DNA of 42,968 bases from Deltaproteobacteria bacterium (GTDB taxonomy: Bacteria; Desulfobacterota; Syntrophobacteria; BM002): NCBI GenBank assembly GCA_020353155.1, contig CP070689.1, positions 1,994,339-2,037,306 on the forward strand. Direction: 5' to 3'. Below are positions 3,451 through 42,968 of this stretch, piece after piece (the stretch's first letter is position 1; every line of letters starts with the position of its first letter). Made by a program: the position numbers and the translations under genes. Under the pieces are notes generated by a model that saw only the letters and a program-made list of their open reading frames with translations, did not search any database and had not been told where the DNA came from.

Positions 3451-3534
3451 CACTAGGCACTAGGAACTAAGCACTAGGCACTGAGAAGATTGCGGATTTC
3501 GGATTGATTGAACTCTATGCTCCATGCCCTATGC
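3451..3534. repeat. Degenerate heptamer tandem repeats, three words
   Basis: Three consecutive runs share a 7-base period but differ in word: CACTAGG-like units at 3451-3485 (five units), ATTGCGG/ATTTCGG units around 3490-3510, and CTCTATG-CTCCATG-CCCTATG at about 3514-3534. The order ATTTCGG word then CCCTATG word is the same as at 38888-38940, and its reverse complement occurs at 31175-31240. Compared with those copies this one is shorter by one heptamer. Confidence 0.85.
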
Positions 3535-3578
3535 TTTCTCAAATACGAAATCCGCTATCGCCTAGGATCAGAGGATAT

Positions 3579-5231
3579 ATGATAGTCCATTCTCCTATAA
3601 GAATACTTTTCATAGCAGATAAGGAAGATTCGTCTCTCCAGCCGTTGTTGTCGTATTTGGGATCAATCCATCACGTCGAATTGACCTTAGAAGCTCAACT
3701 ACCTCGCGATTTGAGTCCCTATGATGTTGTTGCCACTGCTAACACTGCTGCTTTTGCCAAGGACGATGAGCAACTGACAAAGTTCGTTCGCCGGGGGGGT
3801 GGATGGTTAGGACTGGTGCGCCCCTTGGATGTGGATCTGCCTAAGATATTTGGGGCCCAGCCGAATCCTGTGGGACCTGAGGCCGAGTTGCGGGTTCTAT
3901 TTAAGAACAGCAACCATACCCTGGCAATACGGTTGGCCGATGCCATTTATCTGCAGGGGTTTTACCATGCTCTCAATAAGACATCTGAAGAGACAGAAAC
4001 AGTGCTTTATGCTGACTGGCAATACCAGCATAGCCCCGTGCTTGTCTATCGCCCTGTCGGTGGCGGACAAGTTGCCTGTACAACACTGCAAGCCTATGAC
4101 CATCCCGTTTTCCAACAAATCCTCTACCGCTTGCTGAACCAGTTAGGCGGCCAACCTCTCAGCCATCGCACCTTAGGGGTTGGGCTTTTGGGTTACCCCC
4201 AATCCATAGGCAAGGCTCACGGCCTGGGCATAGAGGCGACGGCTGGTTTTAGTCTGAGCGCTGCCTGTGATTTGGATCAGCAAAGGCTCGAAGAGGCAAA
4301 AGGTGATTTTCCCCGGGCGAAGACCTATGACTCTGCCGAAGCATTGGCGGCGGACCCCGAGATTGATCTGGTTATTGTGGCCACGCCGCCTAATACTCAT
4401 GCCAGTCTTTGTCTGCAGATGATGGCGGCGGGCAAGCACGTGGTCTGCGAAAAACCCTTAGCGATAAATCGTAAAGAAACGGCCGCTATGGTGGAAATGG
4501 CTGACAAAAAGCAGGTGCATCTCAGCTGCCACCAAAACCGTCGTTGGGATGTAGATTACTTGGCGATCAGACAAGCCCTGGCTGAAGGGCTGATTGGAAA
4601 ACTCTTTTATGTGGAGACTTTTGTTGGCGGCTTCAACCATCCCTGTGGTTACTGGCATTCGCACGATGCGATTTCAGGAGGCACAGCATATGATTGGGGC
4701 GCCCATTATCTGGATTGGTTGGTGAGTTTGATTCCTCACGAGGTCTCGGCAGTTGTCTCGACCAGGCAAAATCGAGTTTGGCACGATGTCACCAATGCCG
4801 ACCAGGAACGCATACAAATAAGGTTTGCCGGGGGACAAGAAGCGGAATTTATCCACTCCGACATTGCTGCCGCGGGCAAGCCAAAATGGTATCTCTTGGG
4901 AACTGAGGGCGCGATCGTTGGCCATTGGCGGCATGTGACCACCTACGAGATTGACCCTGTCCTCTATTTCCACCAGCACAACATCCCTGCCACCGAAATG
5001 GTTCCGGATTTAACTTTGCACCGCCGTCATCATTCTGGCCAGATAGTTGCGCAAAAACTGGCACTTCCCAAAAGAGAGCATTATCTTTTTCACCGGAACC
5101 TGGCTGATCACCTGCTGACAGGAGAGCCAATAGTAGCGCCACTTGAAGATTCGGTGCGGGTGGTAGAGATTTTAGAGGCAGCCGCAAGATCAGCGACCAA
5201 GGGGGGTACGGTAGAGGTGATTGATGGCTGA
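3579..5231 (+). CDS. ThuA-like domain fused to Gfo/Idh/MocA oxidoreductase
   Basis: Start chosen at the ATG at 3579, with GAGG about seven bases upstream; an earlier in-frame start at 3504 would translate the heptamer repeats. The product is about 550 residues. The first 190 or so resemble the ThuA/trehalose-utilisation amidotransferase-like fold (IRILFIADKED, a RRGGGWLGLVRP strand-loop). From about 200 on it is a Gfo/Idh/MocA NAD(P)-dependent sugar oxidoreductase: LGVGLLGYPQSIGKAHGLGI nucleotide-binding start, VIVATPPNTHA, the VVCEKPL motif with the catalytic Lys, and GGTAYDWGAHYLDW in the second domain. It opens a tight five-gene operon, overlapping the next gene by eight bases. It probably oxidises, reduces or epimerises a sugar or inositol-type substrate. 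The specific substrate cannot be read from sequence. Confidence 0.88.
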   Translation: MIVHSPIRILFIADKEDSSLQPLLSYLGSIHHVELTLEAQLPRDLSPYDVVATANTAAFAKDDEQLTKFVRRGGGWLGLVRPLDVDLPKIFGAQPNPVGPEAELRVLFKNSNHTLAIRLADAIYLQGFYHALNKTSEETETVLYADWQYQHSPVLVYRPVGGGQVACTTLQAYDHPVFQQILYRLLNQLGGQPLSHRTLGVGLLGYPQSIGKAHGLGIEATAGFSLSAACDLDQQRLEEAKGDFPRAKTYDSAEALAADPEIDLVIVATPPNTHASLCLQMMAAGKHVVCEKPLAINRKETAAMVEMADKKQVHLSCHQNRRWDVDYLAIRQALAEGLIGKLFYVETFVGGFNHPCGYWHSHDAISGGTAYDWGAHYLDWLVSLIPHEVSAVVSTRQNRVWHDVTNADQERIQIRFAGGQEAEFIHSDIAAAGKPKWYLLGTEGAIVGHWRHVTTYEIDPVLYFHQHNIPATEMVPDLTLHRRHHSGQIVAQKLALPKREHYLFHRNLADHLLTGEPIVAPLEDSVRVVEILEAAARSATKGGTVEVIDG

Positions 5232-6234
5232 GCGAATCAAATGGGGTGTTTTGGGCAATGCCGAGATTGCCCGAGTGTGTGTTATCCCTGCCATACAGAA
5301 ATCTAAAAACGGCAGGGTTTATGGGCTTGCCACGCGCTCTCCGGAGAATGCCAAGCAGTTGGTGGCTGACAACAAGATCACTAATGTTTACTACAGTTAT
5401 GATGATCTCTTGGCTGATCCGGTTATCGATGCGGTATATATTCCCCTGCCCAATCACCTGCACCATGCCTGGACTTTGAAGGCATTGGCGGCGGGCAAAC
5501 ATGTTTTGTGTGAGAAACCGCTGGCGTGCAACGCCCGGGAGGCTGAAGAAATGGCAGCTGCAGCTGCAGCTGCGGATTTGTTATTAATGGAAGGAATAAT
5601 GTATCGCTTCCATCCGCGCAACCAGCTCATTAGAAATATGGTGACTCTTGGCAAAATCGGCACCGTATCCTTGGTTAGATCTTCATTTTGTTATCGAATG
5701 GACGAGGAAATTTTGGCAAAGGGTAACAACCCGCGGTTAAAAGCAGAAATGGGTGGCGGCGCTCTGCTAGATGTGGGTTGTTATAGCGTAAGCGTGGCCC
5801 GCTGGTTCATGGGCGTGGAGCCGACTGCCGTGCAGGCACAGGCTGTATATCATTCAAGTGGCGTCGATATGCATATGGTGGGACTGCTGAAGTTTGCTGA
5901 AAATGGTCTTGCTACTATTGAAGCTAGTTTCATCACCTCACTGCAACAGACATATTCCGTCTTAGGCAGTGAAGGTGCCATCGAATTGCCTCACGATGCT
6001 TTTATCCCCTGGGAAAGGGAGGCGGCCTTTACTGTGCGGGGAAAAGATCAGGAGGTAGGGCAGAAACACCTAACGGAGGGTGCGGACGAGTATCAACTTA
6101 TGGTTGAACATTTTGCTGATGCCCTATTGGGTGCGGAAGCATTGGCACTAACGCCGGAAGAGAGTGTTCGCAATATGCGAGTTCTGGACGGCCTGGCAGA
6201 AGCAGCCCGGACCGGGACGACGGTGAGATTGTAG
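5224..6234 (+). CDS. Gfo/Idh/MocA family oxidoreductase
   Basis: A 336-residue NAD(P)-dependent sugar dehydrogenase. It begins with the Rossmann strand IKWGVLGNAEIARV, has IPLPNHLHH and the HVLCEKPLAC motif with its catalytic Lys, and a C-terminal domain with GGGALLDVGCYSVSVARWFM, the block found in the glucose-fructose oxidoreductase / 1,2-dihydrodiol dehydrogenase branch. The ATG at 5224 overlaps the end of the preceding gene and is preceded by GAGGTG, so translation is probably coupled. An alanine run after the EKP motif is encoded by repeated GCAGCT units around 5552-5575 and may vary in length. Together with the upstream fusion it gives the operon two related sugar oxidoreductases. No signal peptide; cytosolic. 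Confidence 0.9.
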   Translation: MAERIKWGVLGNAEIARVCVIPAIQKSKNGRVYGLATRSPENAKQLVADNKITNVYYSYDDLLADPVIDAVYIPLPNHLHHAWTLKALAAGKHVLCEKPLACNAREAEEMAAAAAAADLLLMEGIMYRFHPRNQLIRNMVTLGKIGTVSLVRSSFCYRMDEEILAKGNNPRLKAEMGGGALLDVGCYSVSVARWFMGVEPTAVQAQAVYHSSGVDMHMVGLLKFAENGLATIEASFITSLQQTYSVLGSEGAIELPHDAFIPWEREAAFTVRGKDQEVGQKHLTEGADEYQLMVEHFADALLGAEALALTPEESVRNMRVLDGLAEAARTGTTVRL

Positions 6235-6248
6235 ATTGAGGATTTGGC

Positions 6249-7229: not shown

Positions 7230-7306
7230 CGAATCGCATAGCGCCAAGCGCATAGCGAAAAAAGAATTCCTTATTTACACTGGTTGGAATTGGAGAGGTA
7301 GTTCAC

Positions 7307-8563
7307 GTGGAATCAGAAAAGTTGAGAATCGCAATGCTAAGCGTCCATTCAAGCCCCATAGGCGAACTGGGGACGAAAGACACGGGAGGTATGAGTGTTT
7401 ACGTCCGGGAGCTTGCTCGGGAACTTGGAAACCGCGGTCATATGGTGGACATTTATACCCGTCTGAACGGCTCCAGACAAAAGCAAATAACTCGACTGTA
7501 CGAGAAAGTTCGCCTTATACATCTGAGGGCCGGAAACAACGGCCACATAAACAAATTGGCCCTTTATGGCCATCTTGATGACTTCTTTAAGGAGCTGGAA
7601 AGATTTAGAACCCGTCAGTCTCTCCACTATGATCTCGTACACAGTCACTACTGGTTGTCCGGGAGAGTAGGGAAGTGGGCCCAGGAAAGCTGGGCAGTTC
7701 CGCACGTTTTCATGTTCCATACTGTTAGTGCGGTGAAGAACATTACAGTGGGGTCTGAGAAAGAACCGGAACTGCGCACGGCTACGGAGAAGAATTTGGC
7801 AAGAAACTGCGACCGCATACTGGTGGCCACAGATAAGGAAAGAGGCCATCTGATCAACCACTACGAGGCATCCCCTCAGAAGATCGGTGTAGTTCCCTGT
7901 GGGGTAAATCTGGATCTTTTCAGCCCATGGGACAGGGCGAAGGCTCGGCAGAAACTGGGGTTTGCTCAAGATGAATCGATTGTCTTGTTTGTCGGTAGGT
8001 TTGCCCCTTTAAAGGGAATAGACAGGTTGATGGAGGCCATGTACCATTTGCAGCACCATAAGCGGTTAAGATTAGTAATTGTCGGTGGCGACGGCACTAA
8101 CACCCCGGAGTTTCAAGGACTCCAAAAACTGGCTCGGAATTTTGGCATTCAGGAGAGCGTTACTTTTGCTGGTAGGATAGAGCAAGATAACCTGCCAGCC
8201 TACTACAGTGCCGCAGACGTTCTAGTCGTACCTTCTTACTATGAAAGCTTCGGGCTCGTAGCGCTGGAGGCCCTGGCTTCCGGAACTCCGGTGGTAGCAA
8301 CTAAAGTTGGGGCCATGGAGAGTATTCTAAAGGAGGGTAAAACCGGACACGTGGTGAGCAATGGTTCGCCCCGTTTGCTGGCAAAGAGTATAGAAAAGTT
8401 TATCTCAGGTTCGAATGGCTTGTCGGCCCATGAGGTTAGAGCATCAGTTCTTAGTTATAGCTGGGCAAATGTGGCAGCCGCCATGCTTGACCAATACGCG
8501 GCAGTGCTTAGAGCATGGGATTTTCACAGTTTCTGCTGCTGCGGAAAAGTCTCGATGCTTTAG
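7307..8563 (+). CDS. GT4 glycosyltransferase, MshA/sucrose-phosphate-synthase-like
   Basis: A 418-residue GT-B fold glycosyltransferase of family GT4. The start is GTG at 7307, with GGAGAGG about ten bases upstream. The N-terminal domain has DTGGMSVYVRELARELGNRG, the glycine-rich donor/acceptor loop typical of MshA and sucrose-phosphate synthase relatives, then VHSHYWLSG. The C-terminal domain has VPCGVNLDLF, ILFVGRFAPLKGIDRL-type spacing (IVLFVGRFAPLKGIDRLMEA) and the retaining EX7E nucleotide-sugar site in VPSYYESFGLVALEALASGT. Only ten bases separate it from the PIG-L deacetylase gene. In mycothiol and bacillithiol synthesis a GT4 enzyme adds GlcNAc and a PIG-L enzyme deacetylates it, so a GlcNAc-transferring role is a reasonable inference, though no Cys ligase is seen nearby. 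Confidence 0.9.
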   Translation: MESEKLRIAMLSVHSSPIGELGTKDTGGMSVYVRELARELGNRGHMVDIYTRLNGSRQKQITRLYEKVRLIHLRAGNNGHINKLALYGHLDDFFKELERFRTRQSLHYDLVHSHYWLSGRVGKWAQESWAVPHVFMFHTVSAVKNITVGSEKEPELRTATEKNLARNCDRILVATDKERGHLINHYEASPQKIGVVPCGVNLDLFSPWDRAKARQKLGFAQDESIVLFVGRFAPLKGIDRLMEAMYHLQHHKRLRLVIVGGDGTNTPEFQGLQKLARNFGIQESVTFAGRIEQDNLPAYYSAADVLVVPSYYESFGLVALEALASGTPVVATKVGAMESILKEGKTGHVVSNGSPRLLAKSIEKFISGSNGLSAHEVRASVLSYSWANVAAAMLDQYAAVLRAWDFHSFCCCGKVSML

Positions 8564-8573
8564 GAGTTTTACC

Positions 8574-9272: not shown

Positions 9273-9274
9273 GA

Positions 9275-9345
9275 GGCATGGAGCATGGAGTATAGAGTAA
9301 TTCAATTTGTTTTTTACTCTATGCTCTCTGCCCTATGCCCCATGC
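9275..9345. repeat. Palindromic heptamer repeat between convergent genes
   Basis: The left arm at 9275-9300 (GGCATGGAGCATGGAGTATA then GAGTAA) and the right arm at 9314-9345 are imperfect reverse complements, both built of heptamers of the CTCTATG/CCCTATG/CCCCATG word. The right arm touches the TAG stop of the MBL hydrolase gene and the left arm begins three bases after the TAA of the deacetylase gene. The predicted long hairpin with a T-rich loop (ATTCAATTTGTTTTTT) lies between two convergent genes and could end transcription from both sides. Confidence 0.75.
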
Positions 9346-9983
9346 TAGCCTGCCCACACAACATCTCCGTGGAGTTCCGGATCTGTTGGCCGTTTGGAAA
9401 ATACCTCATATAACTTCTTTTCCCTGCCTATTGTCGTGGCTTCGCCATGGCCAGGATACACCTCAGTGTCGTCCGGCAGGCCGAATAGCTTTTCAGTGAT
9501 TGATTTAACAATTTGGCGGAAGTCATTGGCTGTCTGGGTTTTGCCTGGTCCTCCGGGAAACAAGGTATCGCCTGCAATCAGATAATTCCCTGCGAGAAAA
9601 CATATGCTCCCCCCTGTGTGTCCCGGGGTATGTAATGCTTTAAGCTTTAAGCGGCCGAGGGATATTTCATCTCCGTGATTTAGCAACAGATCAACAGTCG
9701 CCGGTAAATCGCCTGCTTCTGCAAGGTGAGCGGCAACCGGGATATTGAGGGCCGATTTTAGCTCGGCCAGTCCACCAATATGATCAAAATGGCCGTGGGT
9801 CATCAGGATATACTGAGGGCGAGTCTTGTTCAGTTGGGCCAAGACCAGGTCCACATCCCCAGGGGCATCTACAACCACACTCTCATTTGTTTTTGGGCAA
9901 ATGAGGATATATGAATTAGTTCCGAAAGGGCCTATTTCAAGCCTGTATATTTGAATGTGCTCATTTTTAACGACTGTTATCAT
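9345..9983 (-). CDS. MBL-fold metallo-hydrolase, glyoxalase II-like
   Basis: A 212-residue metallo-beta-lactamase-fold hydrolase. It has the metal motif THGHFDH (62-68), TPGHTGGS with His122, a GDTLFPGG block with Asp139, and YPGHGE near residue 188: the full dinuclear zinc ligand set of the GloB-like hydroxyacylglutathione hydrolase / persulfide dioxygenase-related group. The N-terminal GTNSYILIC strand fits the same group. The ATG at 9983 is preceded by GGAGAG. Cytosolic thioester hydrolysis is likely; I cannot tell the substrate. It is followed downstream by the palindromic repeat and lies in the same orientation as the HAD gene, with a REP pair between them. Confidence 0.9.
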   Translation of the reverse strand: MITVVKNEHIQIYRLEIGPFGTNSYILICPKTNESVVVDAPGDVDLVLAQLNKTRPQYILMTHGHFDHIGGLAELKSALNIPVAAHLAEAGDLPATVDLLLNHGDEISLGRLKLKALHTPGHTGGSICFLAGNYLIAGDTLFPGGPGKTQTANDFRQIVKSITEKLFGLPDDTEVYPGHGEATTIGREKKLYEVFSKRPTDPELHGDVVWAG

Positions 9984-10001
9984 TTTCTCTCCACGATGAC
10001 T

Positions 10002-10076
10002 ATCGCAAGCGAAGCTTGCTCCTACAGAAATAATGTTAGTTGATATGTGACCTGTAGGAGCAACCTTTGGTCGCGA
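10002..10076. repeat. Pair of inverted REP-like elements
   Basis: TCGCAAGCGAAGCTTGCTCC then TACAG (10002-10026) and CTGTAGGAGCAACCTTTGGT then CGCGA (10052-10076) form an inverted pair of the widespread TCGC..GC..GC(T)TGCTCCTACAG REP family. The first copy has an internal GCAAGC/GCTTGC hairpin, the second a shorter one. The pair lies between two same-strand genes, and the second copy directly abuts the TAA of the HAD gene. A third, single copy is at 15667-15690. No RAYT transposase is in the window. Confidence 0.8.
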
Positions 10077-10688: not shown

Positions 10689-10728
10689 TCCTTCTCAATC
10701 AAAGCAAGGTCCCTCGGGCCTGGCTTCT

Positions 10729-11145: not shown

Positions 11146-11324
11146 ATATCGTCCTCCTTTATCGCCCACTGGCCAAGTTAACTAGTAGGATGTAAAAATG
11201 GTAACCATGAACTTAATTATAGTCAAACAGTGCAAAAACAGGGGTTCTGCTTGCTGCAAGGAGTTTCAATTGCTATGCTCTGGTGGGAGCGGGGAAAAAT
11301 AGCTGTCAAAGGAGAAATTTTTTG

Positions 11325-12995: not shown

Positions 12996-13041
12996 GAATA
13001 AATCGCAAAACTAGGCGGGGCCGGCGTGTGGGTGGTGAAGA

Positions 13042-14756: not shown

Positions 14757-14785
14757 TTTATTTTCACCTTAAACGTAATGGTTAG

Positions 14786-18699: not shown

Positions 18700-18780
18700 A
18701 GATAGGAGATAGGAACCAGTAGCTAGTAGATCTAGATTGTTGTTTTTGTTCTTCTCTCCTGGATTCTGACTCCTGACTCC
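18700..18780. repeat. Heptamer repeat region
   Basis: GATAGGA-GATAGGA-ACCAGTA-GCTAGTA units (from about 18703) are followed by TCCTGGA-TTCTGAC-TCCTGAC-TCC units (about 18758-18780). The second word is shared with 31246-31290. It fills the gap between the Nudix and SpoIIE genes and ends at the phosphatase stop codon. Confidence 0.7.
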
Positions 18781-20845: not shown

Positions 20846-21244
20846 GATATATAGCGACAATACTGTAAAGCCAATGAGCTTTTTTGAGGTACTGGAGAAT
20901 GTTTAATTAATGATTTCAGATAGTTGATTGCAGATTGAGGTTAAATGCATTTCTTGCCACATGGTCCTGAACCCTTAAATCAGAAATCTACATTCTCAAA
21001 TCTATTATAGTGGGGCTCCAATAATCCAGCATACTTCCACCTCAAGGAAAGACCAGCTTTGGGCTCAGGCCAAAGTTAGGTGCGCCCTCGCAGTGCAGAA
21101 GCGTCCATAGAACTGGATTCTCTACTTTTTCCTCCTTAGGCATTGCCTTCCTTAACAGCGGGAATCCTCACAAATATAACTTGATTTACATCCTACATTG
21201 TGGTACCCTTTTAGACCGCAAAGCATCTAATTAATTAAAAATTC
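20846..21244. other. Intergenic region with heptamer repeats
   Basis: The 400-base gap holds the repeat at 20912-21004. The remainder (21005-21244) shows no coding frame, hairpin or promoter that I can defend. Confidence 0.4.
20912..21004. repeat. GATT-type heptamers in inverted arms
   Basis: GATTTCA-GATAGTT-GATTGCA-GATTGAG (20912-20939) is followed after about 35 bases by the reverse complement word, read on the minus strand as GATTTGA-GAATGTA-GATTTCT-GATTT. The word is shared with 3490, 34172 and 38888. Confidence 0.7.
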
Positions 21245-31170: not shown

Positions 31171-31345
31171 TTGAGGCATAGGGCATGGAGCATAGGGCAT
31201 AGGGTCAAAACAATCCGCAATCCGCAATCCCAAATCCGCAATCTGTCCTCTGATCTCTGACTTCCGACCTCTGACCTCTAATCCAGTCTCGCCCGACCTC
31301 CCGTCTCGCCGTTTCTCCGACTCCCCGGATCGTCCCGCTGTGCCA
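31171..31345. repeat. Composite heptamer repeat between sucA and sucB
   Basis: Consecutive heptamer runs: GGCATAG-GGCATGG-AGCATAG-GGCATAG (31175-31202), AATCCGC-AATCCGC-AATCCCA-AATCCGC (31212-31239), CCTCTGA-TCTCTGA-CTTCCGA-CCTCTGA-CCTCTAA (about 31247-31281), then CG-starting octamers up to about 31340. The reverse complement of 31175-31216 equals 38899-38940 at 40 of 42 bases. Located inside the sucA-sucB-lpd operon. Confidence 0.85.
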
Positions 31346-31350
31346 AGTGC

Positions 31351-32742
31351 CTACTTCTTAGGCGGTGGTCCTACTGCTTCCTCAATAATCGCCGCTTGTT
31401 GTTTCTTGTAGATATTGTGAAAACCAGTAGCTGGGCTTGCTGCTTCATCTCTGCCAACATACTTAAGGTGCTTGTGCACCAGAGAGGCAAGGCGGGAGCG
31501 GACAAAGTTCCATCCGCCCATGTTTTCAGGTTCTTCCTGAACCCAATACCACTCTTCAGTTCGACTATACTTGGCAATAACTTCTTCCAATTGCTTATAG
31601 GGGAAAGGATAGAACTGTTCCAGTCTTATTATGCTTATGTCAGGGCTTTTTAGATCCTGACGCCTTTGAAAGAGTTCGTAAAAGATCTTGCCACTGCAAA
31701 AGATTATGCGGTGGCAAGTCTTCTTGTTAGTACCATGATCAAGGACTTCTTGGAAGGACCCTTTGGTGAAGTCTGATAGATTGGAAACTGCAAGGGGATT
31801 TCGTAGAAGGCTTTTGGGGGTCATAACTACAAGAGGCTTGCGAAAATCCCGCTTGACCTGACGTCTGAGGAGGTGAAAGTACTGAGCTGGAGTTGTGGGA
31901 TAGCAAACCTGAATGTTTCCCTCGGCACACAACTGTAGGAAGCGCTCGAGGCGGGCACTTGAATGTTCTGGTCCCATGCCCTCGAAACCGTGAGGTAGGA
32001 GCAATACAAGTCCATTGAGCCTCTGCCACTTGGATTGGCCGCTGCTTATGTAAAGATCAATTACCGCCTGGGCGTTGTTGACGAAATCACCAAATTGAGC
32101 CTCCCACATGATCAGGCAATTAGGTTGGGCAAGAGAATAGCCATACTCGAAGCCCAGCACTCCTACCTCAGAAAGGAGACTATCATAGGCATAGAATCTT
32201 GCCTGTCCCTCATCCAGGGATTCAAGAGGTACGAATGTTTCCCCAGTCTGGGTGTCTACTAGGGAGCTGTGTCTTTGGCTGAAGGTGCCTCGCCGGCTGT
32301 CCTGGCCACTCAACCTGACAGGATGGCCTTCCGTCAGTAGAGAAGCAAAGGCCAGAACTTCTCCATTGGCCCAGTCAATTCCTGCGCCATTTTCTATGGT
32401 TTCCAGCCTTTTTTTAAGCAGTGATGCCAGCTTCGAATGAAGGGAGAAGTCCTTGGGGACTTGGTTCAGCATCCGGGCTAGTGCAAGTAGTTGCTTCTTG
32501 GCGACACCTGTTCGGGCAGGTTTGTGAGAGTAATCTCCCTGAAGTCCTTCCCACTCTTCGTAGAATTGCACCCGAGGAAGGACGCACTGTTTTTCTTTCA
32601 TAGTTTTGAACGATTCTTCCAAAACCTGATTAATCCCAGCCTCGATCCTCTTGATCTCATCTTCATTTACAACCTTTTCAGCTAGCAGTTGTTCACCATA
32701 TATCTTATAAGGCGACGGTCTTTCTCTGATGCGCTCATACAT
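31351..32742 (-). CDS. sucA: 2-oxoglutarate dehydrogenase E1, C-terminal part after in-frame stops
   Basis: A 463-residue open frame from ATG 32742 to TAA, in the same frame as the N-terminal part. It holds the pyrimidine-binding and C-terminal domains of E1: GQDSRRGTFSQRHSSLVDTQ, the LSEVGVLGFEYGYSLAQPNC block, WEAQFGDFVNNAQAVIDLYI, LLLPHGFEGMGPEHSSARLE, MTPKSLLRNP and the QEEPENMGGW segment, all intact. The codons between the stops and this ATG encode RRYGHNEGDEPYFTQPQ, again perfect family sequence. No ribosome site lies before the ATG, so separate translation would be weak. Sequence quality is that of a working gene. Confidence 0.9.
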   Translation of the reverse strand: MYERIRERPSPYKIYGEQLLAEKVVNEDEIKRIEAGINQVLEESFKTMKEKQCVLPRVQFYEEWEGLQGDYSHKPARTGVAKKQLLALARMLNQVPKDFSLHSKLASLLKKRLETIENGAGIDWANGEVLAFASLLTEGHPVRLSGQDSRRGTFSQRHSSLVDTQTGETFVPLESLDEGQARFYAYDSLLSEVGVLGFEYGYSLAQPNCLIMWEAQFGDFVNNAQAVIDLYISSGQSKWQRLNGLVLLLPHGFEGMGPEHSSARLERFLQLCAEGNIQVCYPTTPAQYFHLLRRQVKRDFRKPLVVMTPKSLLRNPLAVSNLSDFTKGSFQEVLDHGTNKKTCHRIIFCSGKIFYELFQRRQDLKSPDISIIRLEQFYPFPYKQLEEVIAKYSRTEEWYWVQEEPENMGGWNFVRSRLASLVHKHLKYVGRDEAASPATGFHNIYKKQQAAIIEEAVGPPPKK

Positions 32743-32793
32743 TTGTGGTTGGGTGAAATAGGGCTCATCCCCTTCGTTGTGCCCATAGCGCCG

Positions 32794-32799
32794 CTATCA
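32794..32799 (-). other. Tandem in-frame stops TGA TAG inside sucA
   Basis: On the minus strand the codons read GTA TGA TAG CGG CGC TAT GGG, translating Val-stop-stop-Arg-Arg-Tyr-Gly. The E1 family has Leu-Val-(Cys/Ser)-Tyr-Arg-Arg at this place. A change of one base in each codon (TGC or TGT to TGA; TAT or TAC to TAG) explains both stops without any frameshift. On the plus strand ATAGCG-C-CGCTAT at 32785-32797 is a perfect palindrome that includes both altered bases. Confidence 0.95.
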
Positions 32800-34077
32800 T
32801 ACCAATTCAATAACCACATCTTTTCTGAATTCCAGGCGGTAATCACAGGCAAGTTTGGTAACGTGAATGAGGGCCTCCGGATTCTCCCCATGGACATGAA
32901 AAATGGGCACCATGAGCATTTTGGCCATATCGGTGGAATAGCGAGTGGAGCGGGCGTCCTCGGGGAGGGTGGTGTAGCCAATCTGGTTATTTATCACAAT
33001 GTGAACAGTGCCGCCGGTGGAGTAGCCTTCCAACTGAGACATATTTAGAGTTTCGGCAACTACTCCCTGCCCGGCAAAGGCAGCATCACCGTGGATGAGC
33101 AATGGCAGTACTTGTTTCTCCCCGTTGCTCCCTGCCAATATATCCTGACGGGCCCGGGCAAAGCCCTCGACTACAGGATTAACCGACTCCAGGTGGCTGG
33201 GGTTGTTGAGAAGCAAAACCCTTATCTCCCGATCGTTAGCTGTCCTGAGGTCGGCCATAAAGCCATTATGGTATTTGACATCTCCAGCACCAAATATAGT
33301 GTCGGGATCGTAATTGCTTTCAAACTCGCAGAACACCTCCCCATAAGATTTCCCAAGGACATTGACCTGAACATTCAGCCGGCCACGATGGGCCATCCCC
33401 AAAATAATTTCTTGGCAGCCCTGTTCAGCTACCTGGGTAAGCAGCCTATCTAGCATGGGGATAAGAGCCTCAGCACCCTCCAGGGAAAATCTTGTCTGAC
33501 CAAGGTACTTTTTATGCAAGAATTGCTCGAAGAGGGAAGCCTGATAAAGCTTTTGCAGAATCCTTGTTTTTTCATCCTTTGACAGTTGAGGACGATTTCT
33601 GCTCGGTTCCATGCGCTCCTGCAACCACTGCCGTTCTGCAGGGTCCTGTAGATGCATGTATTCCACCCCAACCGAGCGGCAGTAAGTTTCCCGAAGAACT
33701 GCTATGATTTCTCGGAGAGAAGCCAGATTCTTATCGGGGAGAAGCTGGGTATAGAACTCCCGCTCCAAGTCGTCGTCCGTCAATTTAAAAGCTGCAGGAT
33801 TTAACAGTGGATGATCGGTTGGGCAGGCCGCCAGTGGATCTAGACAAGCCAAGAGGTGACCAAGATCGCGATACCGATGGGTCAATCCCTCCACCCGAGA
33901 TTGTCGCGAGACCTGGTCTTCGTCGCAGACCAGAACAACTTCCGAATCTCTAGCAGAGGCCAACTCGAAGCCTTGAAAGAAAAACTGCCAATCACGGGAT
34001 ACCTTTGCTGGATCAGACTGCCACAGCCTGTATTGCTCCTCGATAAATTCGGTATTCCAAGCACCGGTTATAGCCAT
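32797..34077 (-). CDS. sucA: 2-oxoglutarate dehydrogenase E1, N-terminal part up to in-frame stop
   Basis: Residues 1-426 of E1, first gene of the operon. The N-terminal AITGAWNTEFIEEQYRLWQS segment is the usual docking helix. Then come YMHLQDPAERQWLQERME, LEGAEALIPMLDRLL, ILGMAHRGRLNVQVNVLGKS, and the thiamine-diphosphate and Mg region with IHGDAAFAGQGVVAETLNMS, VINNQIGYTTLPEDARST and VHGENPEALIHVTKLA. It ends FRKDVVIELV and TGA. With the part at 31351-32793 it makes a full-length E1 of about 908 codons, the normal size. On its own it lacks part of the cofactor site and all of the pyrimidine-binding domain, so it would be inactive. Either a fresh pseudogene, a base-calling problem or a recoded gene. 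Confidence 0.9.
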   Translation of the reverse strand: MAITGAWNTEFIEEQYRLWQSDPAKVSRDWQFFFQGFELASARDSEVVLVCDEDQVSRQSRVEGLTHRYRDLGHLLACLDPLAACPTDHPLLNPAAFKLTDDDLEREFYTQLLPDKNLASLREIIAVLRETYCRSVGVEYMHLQDPAERQWLQERMEPSRNRPQLSKDEKTRILQKLYQASLFEQFLHKKYLGQTRFSLEGAEALIPMLDRLLTQVAEQGCQEIILGMAHRGRLNVQVNVLGKSYGEVFCEFESNYDPDTIFGAGDVKYHNGFMADLRTANDREIRVLLLNNPSHLESVNPVVEGFARARQDILAGSNGEKQVLPLLIHGDAAFAGQGVVAETLNMSQLEGYSTGGTVHIVINNQIGYTTLPEDARSTRYSTDMAKMLMVPIFHVHGENPEALIHVTKLACDYRLEFRKDVVIELV

Positions 34078-34087
34078 AGTCCTTCCA

Positions 34088-34197
34088 CCCTTGTAAAATG
34101 TCTAAAGCGATCTAAAATGTCTAAAATGTTCTAAAATGCCTAAAGTGCATAAAATGAAAAATACTTACAAATCAATCCCAAATCGTCAATCCGAAAT
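34088..34197. repeat. Nonamer and heptamer repeats upstream of sucA
   Basis: TCTAAAATG-type units (TGTCTAAAA, TGTTCTAAAA, TGCCTAAAG, TGCATAAAA) at 34092-34155, then, read on the minus strand, GATTTCG-GATTGAC-GATTTGG-GATTGAT heptamers at 34170-34197. The first word recurs at 38202, 38992 and 40291; the second at 3490, 20912 and 38888. Confidence 0.8.
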
Positions 34198-34974
34198 CTA
34201 AGATCCTTCTTTCGAGGCCAAGCCTTTAAACCACTGTGACACTCTTTGGGCAACTTCTTGGCGATGCTCATCCTGGCTGAACATATGGTCAGCTCCGGAA
34301 ATGATGGCCAGTTCAGTATTCACTCTTTTGTACTGGTGCAGCCTGTAGGCGTTCTCCACCGGAATGATTTCGTCCATATCCCCGTGGACCACCATTAAAG
34401 GCTGCGGTAAAGACGGCATAATGGAGGAGAGGTCATATTTAGCTGCGTCTGCAAAAAATGCCTCTGTAAGTTCTAAATTGCGGCCCCTGCTGATGAAGTT
34501 CACCCGTCCGGTGCTTTGCAGTTCCTGAATCTGGTCCTGGCTGAGAAAATGAAAGCTCTGCAAAGGAGATGCTTTTGCTGCCAGGGTGCAAATCGCTTTT
34601 ATATTTTTCATCTGGGATGCCGCCAGGAGAGCGACCATGGCACCCATGCTGTGACCGGCCATCCCAATCCACGAGACATCCTGAGCTGAAATGAATGAGG
34701 CGGCAGCCTTTATATCGTCAACCTGCTTAGAATAAAAGGATTCAGAAAAATTGCCTTCACTCTGACCATTTCCGGAAAAGTCAAAACGTAGTACTTTGAA
34801 ACCCACGTCCAGCAAAGCCAAACTTAGATCGCGAAGAACCCTAGTATGTCTCGAGCAGGTGAAGCAGTGTCCGAGAATGATGCCATGGCGAGAATTCTCT
34901 GCAGGTACATGGAAGGTTCCCGCCAATTTCTCACCAGAGAGATTTGAAAATTGAATCTGCTGCTGCAAGTCCAT
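34198..34974 (-). CDS. Alpha/beta hydrolase (serine aminopeptidase S33 type)
   Basis: A 258-residue alpha/beta hydrolase. The oxyanion region is GIILGHCFTCSRHTRV, followed by LRFDFSGNGQSEGNFSES, the nucleophile elbow GHSMG with Ser109, the acid Asp in VVHGDMDEIIPV and the catalytic His in ISGADHMFS. It has no long cap and no signal peptide. The closest general class is the S33/hydrolase_4 group, often found alone or fused to OsmC, acting on esters or thioesters in the cytosol. Upstream on the minus strand of sucA, but separated from it by repeats, so it may be a separate unit. Substrate unknown. Confidence 0.9.
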   Translation of the reverse strand: MDLQQQIQFSNLSGEKLAGTFHVPAENSRHGIILGHCFTCSRHTRVLRDLSLALLDVGFKVLRFDFSGNGQSEGNFSESFYSKQVDDIKAAASFISAQDVSWIGMAGHSMGAMVALLAASQMKNIKAICTLAAKASPLQSFHFLSQDQIQELQSTGRVNFISRGRNLELTEAFFADAAKYDLSSIMPSLPQPLMVVHGDMDEIIPVENAYRLHQYKRVNTELAIISGADHMFSQDEHRQEVAQRVSQWFKGLASKEGS

Positions 34975-35412: not shown

Positions 35413-35823
35413 GTGCAGCCAATCCTTGATGGAGCCAGATTATCTCCTTGGGAGCCGGGTCTTTTCAGCTTGGCCGTCTATGCACTTATGGTACTAGGCT
35501 TAGTTGCAGTACTGCTCTTCTTTGCTTCCTGGCTGGGGGAAAAGAAAGATAATCCGGAGAAACTGCGCCCGTATGAAAGCGGAATCATCCCAACCGGCTC
35601 AGCCAGGCTCCGCTACCCCGTTCCATTTTTTCTAGTCGCCATTTTCTTTTTAATTTTCGATGTGGAAGCAGCCTACATCTTTTCTTGGGCCATCTCCTAC
35701 TACAGGCTAGGTTGGGCTGGCTGGCTGCAAATATCCTTCTTTATCTTCGTCCTACTTCTTGGCCTAGTTTATATCTGGAGGAAGGGAGGGCTCGAGTGGG
35801 GGCCAACGTCGAGAGAGGATTGA
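35413..35823 (+). CDS. nuoA: NADH-quinone oxidoreductase subunit A
   Basis: The start is GTG 35413, five bases after GGAGG. The 136-residue product has three membrane helices (about 16-38, 68-90 and 100-118) and the conserved loop [20 protein letters not shown], followed by [20 protein letters not shown] with the invariant FD.E in the second helix. NuoA sits at the base of the quinone channel, next to NuoH and NuoJ. First gene of the complex I operon; its 3' end overlaps the start of the NuoBCD gene by 28 bases. The opening residues are longer than usual. Confidence 0.95.
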
Positions 35824-38186
35824 GCAACCCCCTCGTGAGGGGAGCTGATATCCTGATTAACTGGGCTCGCCAGTACAGTCTCTGGCCTATGTTCTTCGGC
35901 CTATCGTGCTGTTTTGTGGAGGAGGCAACAGCCTTCACCGCCAGGTATGACATGGCCCGATTCGGAGCAGAGGTGCTTCGGCCTTCACCGAGGCAGGCGG
36001 ACCTTTTAATAGTCTCTGGCACGGTTTTCAAGAAGATTGCGCCGGTTGTCTTAAGGCTTTACGAGCAGATGGCGGAACCCAAATGGGTCATCTCCATGGG
36101 TTCTTGCTCCAACAGCGGGGGAATGTACGATGCCTACAGTGTGGTTCAGGGAGTGGATCAAATACTGCCGGTGGATGTCTATATCCCAGGCTGTCCGCCA
36201 AGGCCTGAGGCCGTCCTGCAGGGGCTTGTGATGTTGCAGGAAAAAATAGTTTCCGAGGAACGCCCAACTCGCACCATCCTTCATCTTCGGGGTGGAACCC
36301 AGGGGACTCAAAGGCCCATTCTGGTTGACGGCCAAACAAAGTCCAGAGATCCTCGAGGGCCCGGAATGCAAGGAACTGCCATACGGGGAACTTCCGCAGT
36401 GCCGCCAGGATTCCGGGAAAGCCGCTCGGACTTAATGTGGACGCCACCGCCAAGATGGATCGAGTTAGGTGAGGGTGACAAGAGTCTGGCCCATACTCTC
36501 CAAGAACGTTTTGGAAACAATGTACAGCAGACCGAGCAAACCTCGGACATGCTTACCTTTCAGGTGGAGCAAGGGCGGATCAAAGAGGTGGTTAAATTTC
36601 TCAAACAAGATGCGACCCCAAGGTATCTCCGCTTGGAGGATCTCACCGCGATTGATGAATCCGCCCGAAGGAATCGTCTAGACTATCCGGATTACACTCT
36701 GGTTTACCACCTGCTGTCCTTCGAGCCCGCCACCAGGTTGCGGCTTAAAGTGGGATTAAAAGGGGAAGATCCCATAACTCAGAGCGTGACCGATATCTGG
36801 CCCTCTGCAAACTGGTATGAGCGGGAAGTATTCGACATGTTTGGCATAAGGTTCGAAGGCCATCCGAACCTGCGCAGACTTATCATGCCCCACGACTGGG
36901 AGGGCCATCCCCTCAGAAAGAGTCATCCAGGTCGAGCCACGGAAATGGCCCCTTATACTCTTGCCGATGCCCAGAAGCTCCAGCCCTTGGACGGGGGTAT
37001 CTATATCAAAAAAGATGGTAGAGAACACGAGCTCATTCTAAACATCGGCCCCCACCACGTAAGTACACACGGTTTGATGCGCTATATAGTTTCCCTCAAC
37101 GGTGAAGAGATAACCGACATCGACATGGACATCGGTTACCATCATCGGGCGGCGGAAAAGATTGGCGAAAGACAAACCTGGAACCAGTTCATTCCATATA
37201 CGGATCGCGTGGATTATCTGGCAGGTGCAGCAAACAATCTTCCCTATGTCATGGCCGTTGAAACTCTGGCTGGCATAGAAGTTCCGCAGCGGGCCCAGGT
37301 GATCAGGGTTATGCTCAGCGAATTTTTTCGCTTAAGTAATCATCTCGTCTTTTTTGCCACCCTCGCCCATGACGTGGGGGCCATGACTCCTAATTTCTAC
37401 ACCTTTAGAGAACGGGAAATCCTTCTAGACATAGTGGAGCTAATAACCGGAGGTCGACTGCATCCCTCGTGGTTCCGGCTGGGAGGCGTTGCCGCGGATT
37501 TGCCGGAGGGTTGGAAAGAAGCTGTTGATCATTTCGTCAATATATTTCCTGATCGTCTCAGAGAATACGAATCTCTGATAACCAAGAACCCCATCTTTAA
37601 AGCCAGAACTCAAGGCATCGGTCGCATTTCATTGGAGGACTCAATTGATTGGGGTGTGAGCGGTCCCAACTTGCGGGCTTGCGGCCTGGAGTGGGATTTG
37701 CGGAAAAAGTTTCCCTACTCGGGCTATGAAAACTTTGATTTTGAGATCCCCACTGCCACCGAGGGAGATTGTTACGCTCGCTATCTTGTGAGGGTCGAGG
37801 AGATGCGCCAAAGCTGGAAAATTATCAAACAGGCCGCAGAGCAGATGCCATCAGGGCGCTACGTTACAGATGATTATCGTTATGTGATCCCCCAAAGATC
37901 GGACATGTTGAAAGATATAGAGAGCCTGATACATCACTTCATTAATGTGACCCGGGGAGCCAAGATCCCCAGGGGGGAGGCTTATGCGTCCTGTGAGATC
38001 CCAAGGGGAGAGCAGGGCTATTATGTTGTGAGTGATGGACTCGGCTATTCGTATCGTACCCGGATACGATCACCGGGTTATGCAAATGTACAGGTGATGC
38101 CCCGTATGGCTATGGGTGAGAGTATAGCCGACTTAATCGCCATTATCGGGTCCATAGACTACATCATGCCGGATATTGATAGATAG
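35796..38186 (+). CDS. nuoBCD: NADH-quinone oxidoreductase NuoB-NuoC-NuoD fusion
   Basis: The start is GTG 35796, five bases after AGGGAGGG. The 796-residue product holds three complex I subunits. Residues about 1-165 are NuoB, with N2-cluster cysteines in [30 protein letters not shown] and [11 protein letters not shown]. About 165-215 is a linker rich in Gly/Arg/Pro. About 215-380 is NuoC ([40 protein letters not shown]). About 390-796 is NuoD, with [20 protein letters not shown], the quinone-site region [20 protein letters not shown] and [11 protein letters not shown] at the end. NuoCD fusion is known from E. coli; the added NuoB gives the whole quinone-reducing hinge in one chain. No signs of frameshift. 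Overlaps the end of nuoA. Confidence 0.95.
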
Positions 38187-38198
38187 AGTCACGAGTGC

Positions 38199-38371
38199 CG
38201 AAAATGCCTAAAGTATACGAACGGTAATGAGTTTCAGCAGGCAGTGGGAAGGAAGAACTTGGAGTAGTGGAGTAATGGAGTACTGGAGTAATGGAAAAGC
38301 CAAAAACATAAAAATACTTCGATTCGAGGCTTTCTTCAACACTCCAACACTCCAATACTCCAACACTCCAT
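38199..38371. repeat. Octamer palindrome between nuoBCD and nuoE
   Basis: AAAATGCCTAAAGT at 38202-38215 is the nonamer word. Then GGAGTAGT-GGAGTAAT-GGAGTACT-GGAGTAAT-GG (38261-38294) is followed by about 45 bases and by CACTCCAA-CACTCCAA-TACTCCAA-CACTCCAT (38340-38371). The two arms are imperfect reverse complements of each other. The last repeat unit ends in AT and together with the next G makes the ATG of nuoE at 38370. Confidence 0.88.
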
Positions 38372-38873: not shown

Positions 38874-38881
38874 AAGTCCAT

Positions 38882-39009
38882 TTGAGATTTTGGATTTCGG
38901 ATTGTTTTGACCCTATGCCCCGTGCTCCATGCCCTATGCCTGGAGCCATCCACGCTATGGGCTCTGCGCTATGCGCCATGCGGTGACAACTTCAGACACT
39001 TTAGGCATT
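38882..39009. repeat. Composite heptamer repeat between nuoE and nuoF
   Basis: TTTTGGA-TTTCGGA units, TTGTTTTGA, then CCCTATG-CCCCGTG-CTCCATG-CCCTATG (38911-38938), then CTATGGG-CTCTGCG-CTATGCG-CCATGCG (about 38954-38981) and finally the inverted nonamer word (CACTTTAGGCATTT, about 38997-39010) just before the nuoF start. 38899-38940 matches the reverse complement of 31175-31216 at 40 of 42 bases. Confidence 0.88.
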
Positions 39010-39010
39010 T

Positions 39011-40282
39011 ATGATGAATTATCCACAAGTGCTGTTTAAAAATCGCAAGCCCGATAGGATTGCCACGCTGGAGGAATATCGCCAGAGTGGCGGATACGAG
39101 GGGCTAGGAGATGCTTTGAGCAAAGCTTCTCATAAGGATGTGCAACAGGTCCTGTTGGATGCGGTGCTTTTGGGTAGGGGGGGCGCGGCCTTTCCGGCCG
39201 GCAGAAAGCTGATGACCGTGGCGGATGATGCGCCCCATCCAAGATACATTGTGTGCAACGCCGATGAGATGGAACCCGGGACTTTTAAGGATCGAGTTTT
39301 GATCCACGCTGATCCTCATATGCTCATTGAAGGAATGATCATTGCGGGGTACGGAGCCCAGGCAGAGAAGGGCATAATTTTTATCCGGCCTGAGTACGAG
39401 AGTGCAGCAAGAATTTTGGAAAGGGAAATAAAAATAGCAAAGGAAGCCGGCTATCTGGGTAAGAACATACTGGGGAACGGCTATTCCCTGGACATCGTAG
39501 TCCACCGCAGTGCCGGCAGGTATATCTGCGGTGAGGTGACGGCACAACTAAATGCCCTCATGGGGAAGAGAGCCAACCCTCAACAGCCCCCCCCTTATCC
39601 CACGGAAAAAGGGCTCTGGGAAAGACCCACAGTGCTACAAAATGTAGAAACCCTCGCCTGTATGCCCCACATACTTAGAAATGGACCTGAATGGTTCAAG
39701 AACCTGGCACTCACGGAAACCGGTGCCGGCACTAAGATTTTCTGCGCAAGCGGCAAGATAAATAGTCCAGGTTGCTATGAACTTCCCATGGGTATCCGGT
39801 TGAGCGAAATCATTGAAGTGCATGCCGGCGGGATGGTCGAGGGATCAGAATACAAGGCCTGTCTGCCCGGTGGTGCCTCCACCCGATTCTTGCCCAGGGA
39901 ATTTTATGATATCGAGATGGATTTCGACACCTTACGCAATGTTGGACACAGGCTGGGCACAGGCGCAATAATGGTTTTCGATCAAAAAACCTGCCTTGTC
40001 GCCGCCACCTTGAACCTGGTTGAATTTTTTGCCCGAGAATCATGTGGTTGGTGTACACCTTGCCGGGAGGGATTGCCATACATCAGGGATTTGCTCAGAC
40101 GATTGGAGGAAGGCGAGGGTGAGGAAGAATACATTCCCATGCTTCAGCAGATGAGCAAACACCTCTGGAGTTCATACTGTGCCTTTGCTCCCGGAGCAGT
40201 ATCACCAGTTGAGAGCCTGATTACTTATTTTGAGGATGAGGTGAGGGAGCACATCTCTCAGAAGAAATGTCCCTTTAAGTGA
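39011..40282 (+). CDS. nuoF: NADH-quinone oxidoreductase subunit F, NADH-binding
   Basis: A 423-residue FMN and [4Fe-4S] subunit that oxidises NADH. It has the FMN/NADH glycine loop GRGGAAFPAGRK (55-66), YIVCNADEMEPGTFKDR, RYICGEVTAQLNALMGKRAN (170-189), PTVLQNVETL, and cluster N3 cysteines 345, 348 and 351 in SCGWCTPCREG plus Cys390 in SSYCAFAPGA. In the family the 174-178 segment is nearly always GEETA; here Val176 replaces the second Glu. As I recall, an acidic residue at this site in E. coli NuoF helps NADH binding and selection against NADPH. All other motifs are intact. No ribosome site lies directly before ATG 39011, which adjoins the repeat region. Confidence 0.94.
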   Translation: MMNYPQVLFKNRKPDRIATLEEYRQSGGYEGLGDALSKASHKDVQQVLLDAVLLGRGGAAFPAGRKLMTVADDAPHPRYIVCNADEMEPGTFKDRVLIHADPHMLIEGMIIAGYGAQAEKGIIFIRPEYESAARILEREIKIAKEAGYLGKNILGNGYSLDIVVHRSAGRYICGEVTAQLNALMGKRANPQQPPPYPTEKGLWERPTVLQNVETLACMPHILRNGPEWFKNLALTETGAGTKIFCASGKINSPGCYELPMGIRLSEIIEVHAGGMVEGSEYKACLPGGASTRFLPREFYDIEMDFDTLRNVGHRLGTGAIMVFDQKTCLVAATLNLVEFFARESCGWCTPCREGLPYIRDLLRRLEEGEGEEEYIPMLQQMSKHLWSSYCAFAPGAVSPVESLITYFEDEVREHISQKKCPFK

Positions 40283-40290
40283 GCCCTGAG

Positions 40291-40330
40291 TGTCTAAAAT
40301 GCCTAAAGTGTCTAAAATGTCTAAAAATAG
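40291..40330. repeat. Exact nonamer repeats between nuoF and nuoG
   Basis: TGTCTAAAA-TGCCTAAAG-TGTCTAAAA-TGTCTAAAA, four units in 9-base register (40291-40326). The same word occurs at 34092-34155, 38202-38215 and, inverted, at about 38997-39010. Confidence 0.88.
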
Positions 40331-40359
40331 TAAAGATAATTCTTTATCCTGAGTGACGC

Positions 40360-42870: not shown

Positions 42871-42902
42871 TCATGTAGGGTTGGCAACAAACGTAAAAAC
42901 CC

Positions 42903-42968
42903 TGGAGCAATGGAGTACTGGAGTAAAGGAAAAACCGAAGAAATACAATGTCTTTGAGGTATTCCTCA
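42903..42968 (+). repeat. Second copy of the octamer palindrome, cut by the window edge
   Basis: GGAGCAAT-GGAGTACT-GGAGTAAA-GGAAAA is followed by ACCGAAGAAA and a TTCCTCA end. The first 30 bases match 38277-38306 closely (GGAGTACTGGAGTAA, then GGAAAA and CC.AA.AA). The right arm should lie just beyond position 42968. Confidence 0.75.

Follow-up and report, generated by a model that had tools for sequence, protein, structure and literature searches.

In Xanthomonas (PMC4692102) and Geobacter (PMC2700814), short tandem arrays of seven- or eight-base units have been described, some of which face each other in pairs. In Xanthomonas, arrays of GGGAATC heptamers are mostly intergenic and four units are preferred. 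There, 70 and 75 cases of two close convergent arrays on opposite strands are reported, the majority of the arrays lie between the same genes in two species, and a G-quadruplex has been proposed (PMC4692102). In Geobacter metallireducens, classes 1 and 3 of the 'predicted global regulator binding sites' comprise sites with an 8-mer in four tandem copies (48 sequences) or a 7-mer in five (15/16), on opposite strands and, in class 1, at variable distance; they are reported not to have been identified in G. sulfurreducens (PMC2700814). Here, we analyze intergenic arrays of a related appearance in a bacterium of the Desulfobacterota. The window is a stretch of 42,968 nucleotides (nt) of assembly GCA_020353155.1 (G000:C1:1994339-2037306), and the genome, called G000 below, is one contig of 3,210,263 bases. 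The gaps between its genes hold hundreds of short degenerate arrays of about 30 bases, which face each other in pairs, and we read them as a richer variant of the little-studied convergent arrays of Xanthomonas and Geobacter.

Both sites of about four contiguous 7- or 8-mers and convergent pairs at variable distance, as described for those two genera, are found in G000. As in Geobacter, the tandem 7- and 8-mer sites are dispersed and paired on opposite strands, and by our own comparison the class 3 word MTYCTGA is a rotation of the CTGAATT and CTGACTC words of G000. Compared by description, however, Geobacter has few classes, whereas G000 has about a dozen word families at about 500 arms per Mb, and the 9-mers, the phase-locked word changes and the polarity across families are features of G000. 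Xanthomonas differs in its single G-rich word and its shared positions, while the gaps compared within the genus of G000 have turned over. The TAACTGA heptamers of Beggiatoaceae also form many intergenic sets that are patchy across phyla, but with one word (PMC4679880). Nothing closer than the Xanthomonas and Geobacter arrays was found among the matches listed from the open-access literature, nor was any description of cross-family polarity and phase-locked word changes. The first-pass annotation of the window had known of no description for this type of host, and had in this respect missed the two published cases.

STRR is the name of the heptamer arrays of cyanobacteria, which agree with those of G000 in the period of 7, the intergenic position and the word GGCATAG. 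Contiguous 7-base direct repeats between genes are indeed what G000 contains, and the likeness in period to the cyanobacterial heptamers that had been remarked on holds. The words had been said to differ, which does not hold for GGCATAG: three GGCATAG units in a row (21 bases) occur in at least 118 stretches in genome_contigs, and among the 80 of these that were listed, 67 are cyanobacterial by title and carry this CCCTATG/GGCATAG word. The difference lies elsewhere. The arrays of the cyanobacterial loci analyzed are longer, more perfect and not convergent, whereas those of G000 are short, degenerate and convergent, and the near-perfect units in open-ended number that characterize the former are not seen in the latter.

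The first sample consisted of 40 sources of G000, namely 39 evenly spaced 20-kb stretches and the window, with N removed (823 kb, of which 169 kb intergenic DNA and 647 kb coding calls). Genes were called with a home-made hexamer finder, which was checked by eye only, and on the window only. Another 20 stretches of 20 kb gave an enlarged sample of 60 sources and 1.21 Mb; for the word-family tests these were pooled with the first 40 rather than set apart. The consensuses and thresholds of the word families were picked after viewing the first sample, and the polarity of each family was defined from its left arms there. De novo family building by blast depth was also tried; apart from the main word families, most of the seeds that it produced were spurious. 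Gaps that contain N or are shorter than 30, 40 or 60 nt, depending on the test, were left out, as were gaps above 400 nt in the fold test and those of at least 1500 nt in the pair test.

The intergenic periodicity of 7, 8 and 9 bases is real, and chance is excluded as its source. With a segment threshold of score ≥14 and five dinucleotide shuffles as control, the first sample has 114 lag-7 segments in its intergenic DNA and 3 in its genes. Lags 8 and 9 give 15 and 7 intergenic segments, respectively, and 0 in genes, and the shuffle mean is 0.0 in all three cases. The lags 14, 16 and 21 give 30, 6 and 6 segments, as expected of multiples, and every other lag between 2 and 36 yields at most one segment. 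The signal thus far exceeds that of shuffled sequence. Nor is it confined to this contig: two GATTTCG units with at most one mismatch are present at 87 + 77 places across the chromosome (0 + 2 for the reversed word), and GGCATAG in 9/9 of the genus genomes searched. With 13 word-array queries, 612 arms are found in the 1.21 Mb of G000, or 504 per Mb, compared to 79 matches, about 65 per Mb, for reversed-word decoys. The arrays are spread genome-wide, and degenerate intergenic units with words common to both strands are just what the first-pass annotation had described. Its statement that none occurs inside genes is almost exact, 28 of 594 word-array copies being inside coding calls, where one place can count in two families. 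It had overlooked the convergent pairing and the narrow length, which set the arrays apart from plain tandem repeats.

When the gaps are inspected one by one, the left-hand arrays are mirrored by right-hand arrays. Among same-period arrays sharing a gap in the first sample, 33 of 94 pairs are alike in inverted and 0 in direct orientation (random pairs, 6.4 and 6.8%), and in congeners the numbers are 7 inverted and 1 direct among 37 pairs. Neighbors of the same family less than 200 nt apart in the 60 sources are '+-' in 102 cases, '--' in 5, '++' in 3 and '-+' in 2. When the families are combined, plus arms are followed by minus arms in 163 of the 177 gaps with at least two arms, whereas 2000 shuffles of the signs give a mean of 106 and a maximum of 127. 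Neighbors of different families less than 150 nt apart in G000 are '-+' in 3 of 150. Convergent pairing and inward polarity are thus maintained across different words. The middle between the arms is variable, with 10-60 nt in 35 of 42 pairs.

This polarity is a property of the side of the gap, and not of the word or of the gene strand. Of 570 arms, 404 lie closer to the gene behind them than to the one ahead, and 373 of 504 arms are directed away from the adjacent gene; the gene behind is transcribed toward the arm in some cases and away from it in others. G-skew was considered as a marker of polarity and dropped, the bias being only weak. For comparison, same-family neighbors in 67 cyanobacterial loci (recruited by one word, and with neighbors within one array included) are '++' in 40 cases, '--' in 35 and '+-' in 3. 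In cyanobacterial loci, 13 of 57 same-period pairs are inverted and 11 direct, with 17 and 18% for random pairs, and there is hence no clear excess of inversion.

The arrays are also narrow in length and keep their register across word changes. At periods 7, 8 and 9 the median length is 32, 34 and 36 nt (n=265, 34 and 18), corresponding to medians of 4.6, 4.2 and 3.9 units. The period-7 arrays have a 90th percentile of 49 nt and 2% of them are perfect, while those of the cyanobacterial loci, under an equal threshold with the same detection floor of about 19-21 nt, have a median of 44 nt, a 90th percentile of 101 and 24% perfect arrays (n=160). In alignments of 18-107 copies per family, most families end abruptly on both sides, which the 27-28 nt query sharpens, and conservation of the flanks, either outside or inside the arm, is scant in the 11 families aligned, CAGGTTT having the most.

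The strict register that had been claimed for successive unrelated words is confirmed. For heptamer words up to 45 nt apart, repeats of one ordered pair keep the same distance modulo 7 in 141 of 278 comparisons (39.7 expected; copies from one ancestor are non-independent in this statistic), while beyond 45 nt this is so in 1 of 18 (2.6 expected). The distance from GATTTCG to GGCATAG, for example, is 24, 31 (seven times), 32 or 38. The varying multiples of 7 between words imply that whole units have been gained or lost.

Such gain and loss is what one would expect if the arrays were ordinary heptamer microsatellites of the STRR type, which arise and are renewed in situ through replication slippage where no coding constraint acts. 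This explanation also agrees with the almost exclusively intergenic position, with the period and the one word in common with cyanobacterial arrays, and with a difference of one unit between congeners at nuoF-nuoG; for heptamers, a proposal that ties slippage to the footprint of the polymerase is reported in PMC4692102. It predicts, however, neither convergent pairs nor inward polarity across words, and it is at odds with the narrow length, with the small share of perfect arrays relative to cyanobacteria and with the closely similar arms at unrelated loci. On length, pairing and polarity we therefore disfavor slippage as the main explanation and consider it unlikely. Closely similar arms recur at loci that have neither their flanks nor, in most cases, their middles in common; we infer from this that the arrays did not originate on the spot by slippage but have spread as units.

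Another explanation is that the arrays are selected RNA hairpins, i.e. terminators or stabilizers of transcript ends, with stems that are periodic only incidentally. The gaps with arrays do show excess folding, the mean z-score being -2.23 (108 gaps) compared to -0.92 for those without (280 gaps). The distribution of the gaps with arrays (16 divergent, 25 convergent and 96 co-directional, compared to 88, 69 and 342 for background gaps of at least 60 nt, the gap sets of the two counts differing slightly) and the larger number of arms on the stop side of the adjacent gene than on the start side (296 vs 208) point in the same direction. The two arms of a locus are, on the other hand, not more complementary to each other than to arms elsewhere. 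With G-U pairs included, 6 of the 7 families tested show lower complementarity within loci than between them, three with one-sided P<0.02: ACTAGGC (23.1 within vs 23.6 of 28 between loci; P for lower about 0.014), GATGTGA (21.9 vs 22.8; P about 0.001) and CATTTCT (21.9 vs 22.6; P <0.001). In the other four the differences are not significant, and one of them is marginally higher within loci. Perfect palindromes seem to be avoided. In addition, those pairs of different families that are poor pairing partners still keep the polarity, the window contains 0 Rfam families at gathering cut-offs, and in the orthologous gaps compared among congeners the arrays of seven- and eight-base units are not conserved. 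We regard the hairpin explanation as quite improbable. An origin as a perfect hairpin or by fold-back was also rejected, as the arms of a locus are no more complementary than those of other loci.

The kinship of the arms gives further information. Over 31 sites, an ACTAGGC arm differs from the nearest arm of another locus by 3.6 on average, from its own partner by 8.3, and any two arms differ by 8.1. As the partner is no closer than any other arm in this family, and complementarity is not matched within loci, the arms are inherited as arms and paired by position. Mantel tests indicate that in the 8-base family both arms of a locus have their relatives at the same other loci (r 0.66, P<0.001). 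The signal is less clear for GATGTGA (r 0.33, P 0.03; r 0.40, P 0.002 when flipped), and there is none for ACTAGGC, CATTTCT or AATTGAGG. The middles have mean local scores close to those of shuffled ones (13.1 vs 12.0 for ACTAGGC and 15.6 vs 14.0 for CATTTCT). A few related middles, with maximum scores of 72 and 46, occur in nested ACTAGGC+CATTTCT copies, and most are unrelated, so that the likeness of both ends and core in all copies that defines a MITE is not observed. For two families, ACTAGGC and GATTTCG, the order of the units is informative (P<0.001 in both).

The reading that we prefer, tentatively and without rating it as quite probable, is that the arrays are the arms of dispersed paired intergenic elements, cooperatively bound by a putative small protein and spread in trans. 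Each arm is a run of about 30-36 nt of contiguous degenerate 7-, 8- or 9-base units, and two arms face each other around a variable middle, the elements often being nested or continuing in phase between words. Each unit may be the footprint of one subunit of the putative DNA-binding protein, with about four contiguous units required for cooperative binding, by analogy with the ribbon-helix-helix ParB of pSM19035. That protein needs at least four contiguous 7-bp repeats for full action (PMC9499535), and the layout of about four contiguous units in G000 would fit such a requirement. The facing pair might then be bridged, or folded as a hairpin, by the binding protein. Pairs would spread through the gaps by means of a trans-acting enzyme or a copying process, similarly to REPINs, and the imperfect complementarity would spare the arms from being lost as perfect palindromes are. 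In all, the arrays look more like dispersed paired protein-binding or hairpin elements than like stuttering microsatellites.

REPINs, too, are intergenic, with two inverted conserved ends and a less conserved spacer, form hairpins and occur both as singles and in clusters (PMC3116915), and two inverted ends forming an intergenic hairpin are what the G000 pairs display. The ends in G000 are, however, periodic unit arrays, and they have no tie to a Y1 transposase. Compensatory changes, which are common in REPIN hairpins (PMC3116915), have left no sign in the G000 arms. The REPIN ends are palindromes tagged GTAG/CGTC (PMC3733652); the 11 family consensuses of G000 have no tag in common, with GTAG present in CAGTAGC only. 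A cognate tyrosine transposase is likewise not seen, as the array-rich congener G007 has 0 Y1_Tnp domains. There is 1 such domain in G000, 1-7 across the eight genus genomes other than G007, and 8 in G009 and 10 in G010, both of which are without the GGCATAG pattern. These counts do not follow the arrays, and a REPIN driven by a RAYT was rejected on this ground.

A fourth explanation would be end-directed writing, in which the two 3' ends at a break or gap are each extended by units in steps of 7-9 nt and subsequently joined, as in head-to-head telomere repeats. This would lead to a polarity set by the gap side rather than by the word or the gene strand, to in-phase word changes along an arm, and to arms of a pair that are not copies of one another. 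It leaves the middles of 10-60 nt unexplained, however, and copies at other loci share their unit order in two families. Moreover, RVT_1 reverse transcriptases at E<=0.001 are lacking in 9 of 12 genomes, G000 included, other polymerases not having been searched; they are present in G001, G007 and G011. Writing by a reverse transcriptase was rejected for the lack of RVT_1 in G000, and we find end-directed writing as a whole very unlikely. Viral carriage was also considered and set aside, with 0 exact matches of one 22-mer in viral_contigs.

It is important to point out that several observations weigh against the paired-element reading, of which the weakest points are the maker, the binding protein and the fact that GATTTCG and GGCATAG seldom pair with themselves. 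As for the maker, the Y1_Tnp domains are not distributed as the arrays are, and among 1008 sampled proteins no multi-copy family resembling a transposase was found: the three families with at least three copies are, by eye, response regulators, a GAF-like sensor and a KH-domain protein. As for self-pairing, the common words GATTTCG and GGCATAG have only 4 and 6 '+-' cases for 65 and 73 copies. The orientation of the left arms in the 42 inverted pairs agrees in 103 comparisons and conflicts in 20; the 10 conflicts listed are of ACTAGGC-like words with GTGCCTA, GCATAGA or GGCATAG, or involve GTGCCTA. The detection threshold itself imposes a minimum of about 19-21 nt on array length. The unit number varies (3-4 units; spacings of 24, 31 and 38), which would also be expected from slippage or unequal exchange. 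For 3 of 5 families the unit index carries no significant information, and in the other two, ACTAGGC and GATTTCG, the unit-order signal could be fed by decay of the array edges. No clean pair of empty and filled sites was found, even between stretches about 94% alike in their genes, the gaps of congeners being too diverged. Finally, distinct left-end and right-end arm types were sought and not supported. In spite of an impression by eye, clustering of the ACTAGGC arms gives 8 of 21 discordant pairs (9.6 expected), and a two-type mixture model with offsets gives, for four families, 9/23 (10.3 expected), 10/16 (7.1; P 0.13), 12/21 (9.5; P 0.24) and 7/12 (5.9; P 0.48).

Among the genomes searched, the arrays occur across the genus, and the sister genus that was sampled has almost none. 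The 14-mer GGCATAGGGCATAG is found in 9/9 genus genomes, in 1/3 other genomes of the family and in 1/47 more distant ones, and the ACTAGGC pattern (20 bases, one mismatch) in 2/395 genomes of the phylum, both within the genus. Congener samples contain 20 lag-7 segments in 24.7 kb of intergenic DNA (G006), 10 in 14.7 kb (G005) and 9 in 5.2 kb (G008, where the count is partly double because the sample includes two overlapping loci, L051 and L040, one overlapping locus being counted twice). In the sister genus (G009), 50.8 kb of intergenic DNA holds 0 lag-7 segments and one nine-base array, and the density is 76 arms per Mb (12 in 157 kb; decoys 2), compared to 504 per Mb in G000. This phyletic contrast could help to locate the protein.

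Within the genus, the words turn over. In the nuo and suc operons, one and the same gap carries differing words among congeners. The nuoE-nuoF gap has GATTTCG and CTATGCC in the window, GATTTTA/GATTGCA in G008, AGACGAC in G004, AATTGCG in G005, GAGGTCA in G003, GATGTGA in G007 and none in G009, despite a NuoF identity of 85-96% across the compared genomes. The p34198-nuoBCD gap was left out of this comparison. The nine-base array 3' of nuoF (window 40289) is kept in G003, G004, G005 and G008 with 3-4 units, and is not found in G006, G007 and G009.

Other repeats were encountered along with the arrays. One of these, distinct from the arrays, is dispersed, about 130-190 nt long and has the ends TAGCCCGGAT...ATCCGGGCTA. 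It is found at L003:1925-2114 and L062:2152-2282, with relatives in L001, L005, L010, L014, L019, L026 and L027 and matches in 7/7 congeners searched. Other dispersed inverted repeats, e.g. GGGAGCGACCTCCAGGTCGCGATC and GTAGGGTGGGCATCACCCAC, adjoin the arrays in the nuoF-nuoG gap of G005 and G003, and appear to resemble REP pairs. GATTTCG words also occur within a longer congener element with ends CGAAATCCGAAACAAATTC...GGATTTGTTTCG (L101 about 7815-8340; L266:7707-8041).

Outside the cyanobacteria, the other 13 of the 80 listed GGCATAG stretches come from ten genomes, which are labeled as a planctomycete, Treponema, Bacillota, Bacteroidia, Bacteroidales, Spirosoma, Alphaproteobacteria, Comamonas, Deltaproteobacteria and an unclassified bacterium. 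At three non-cyanobacterial loci (L152, L171 and L180) facing arrays can be discerned by eye. A wider, rather doubtful proposal is that convergent unit arrays constitute a distinct intergenic class across phyla, with degenerate 7-, 8- or 9-base words written in phase inward from both gap ends, a vocabulary partly common to unrelated phyla (GGCATAG, CTGAATT) and sides kept imperfectly complementary. The heptamers reported from cyanobacteria, Xanthomonas, Geobacter and Beggiatoaceae would then be its local outcrops. For the over-representation of heptamers among bacterial repeats, a 2015 account cites the polymerase-footprint idea and notes a lack of detailed literature (PMC4692102). With about 500 arms per Mb and about a dozen word families, the pattern in G000 is dense enough for the cause of this excess to be tested. 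Its narrow length, convergent polarity, phase-locked words and near absence from the sampled sister genus favor a mobile pair or the footprint of a protein over slippage of the polymerase.

In the window itself, arrays were located with Tandem Repeats Finder (TRF), counting three or more copies at a score of at least 30. Repeats had been claimed for twelve gaps, and eight of these have such rows, namely those at 3450, 9319, 31175, 34094, 38260, 38881, 40289 and 42902. The remaining four fall short: the gaps at 18700/18766 and 28359 have two-copy rows only, at the minimum score, and those at 20912 and 35097 have no row. In what follows, fractions give the agreement with the family consensus.

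The first gap contains a period-7 ACTAGGC array at 3450..3482 (+; TRF score 52; 27/28 at 3452-3479), a GATTTCG/GATTGCG block at 3488..3506 (+; TRF 31) and a GGCATAG-family array of minus polarity, CTATGCTCCATGCCCTATGC, at 3515..3542 (22/28). A short hairpin is formed by a left arm of GGCATGG/AGCATGG/AGTATAG at 9276..9300 (+; TRF row 9276-9290) and its paired right arm CTATGCTCTCTGCCCTATGCCCCATG at 9319..9346 (-; TRF 33; 24/28); the gap 9273-9344 folds with -35.6 kcal/mol, corresponding to z -12.6 on the + strand and -5.8 on the - strand. Further on, a GGCATAG array at 31175..31204 (+; TRF 46; 24/28) is followed by two arrays of minus polarity, one of the GATTTCG family (CAATCCG) at 31211..31243 (TRF 52; 23/28) and, abutting it, one of the CAGAGGT family (CTCTGAC) at 31242..31279 (TRF 48; 25/28). 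The gap at 34094 has the nine-base array AAATGTCTAAA at 34094..34156 (+; TRF 66 and 76; 20 and 21 of 27) and a GATTTCG-family array of minus polarity at 34171..34198 (22/28; TRF period 14, score 47).

In another gap, a nine-base word block (AAATGCCTAAAGT) is outermost at 38196..38222 (+; 19/27, at threshold), and the eight-base array TGGAGTAN at 38260..38295 (+; TRF 58 and 65) is the left arm paired with the eight-base right arm CAACACTC at 38337..38370 (-; TRF 61). A GATTTTG/GATTTCG/GATTG block at 38881..38903 (+; TRF 30) precedes two GGCATAG-family arrays of minus polarity, at 38913..38940 (22/28) and 38953..38982 (TRF 39; 21/28), and a nine-base word block (GACACTTTAGGCATTTA) at 38990..39010 (-; 21/27 over 38990-39016), which is the outermost on the right. 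Similar blocks close the same gap in G003, G004, G005 and G008. The nine-base array TGTCTAAAA is located at 40289..40326 (+; TRF 67) and the eight-base array CTGGAGTA at 42902..42925 (+; TRF 34; 25/28).

Some features apart from the arrays may also be mentioned. No small-subunit (SSU) rRNA match was obtained in G000, although the genome is one 3.2-Mb contig. SucA, the 2-oxoglutarate dehydrogenase E1 (window 31351-34077), is encoded by two adjacent open reading frames (ORFs), with the N part at 32797-34077 and the C part at 31351-32742. Matches to the two parts are likewise separate in G007, G008 and the sister-genus G009, and the split therefore appears to be old rather than a sequencing error. 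At 35685-38186, a single ORF of 833 amino acids has the NuoB, NuoC and NuoD domains in a row and thus represents a fused NuoBCD.

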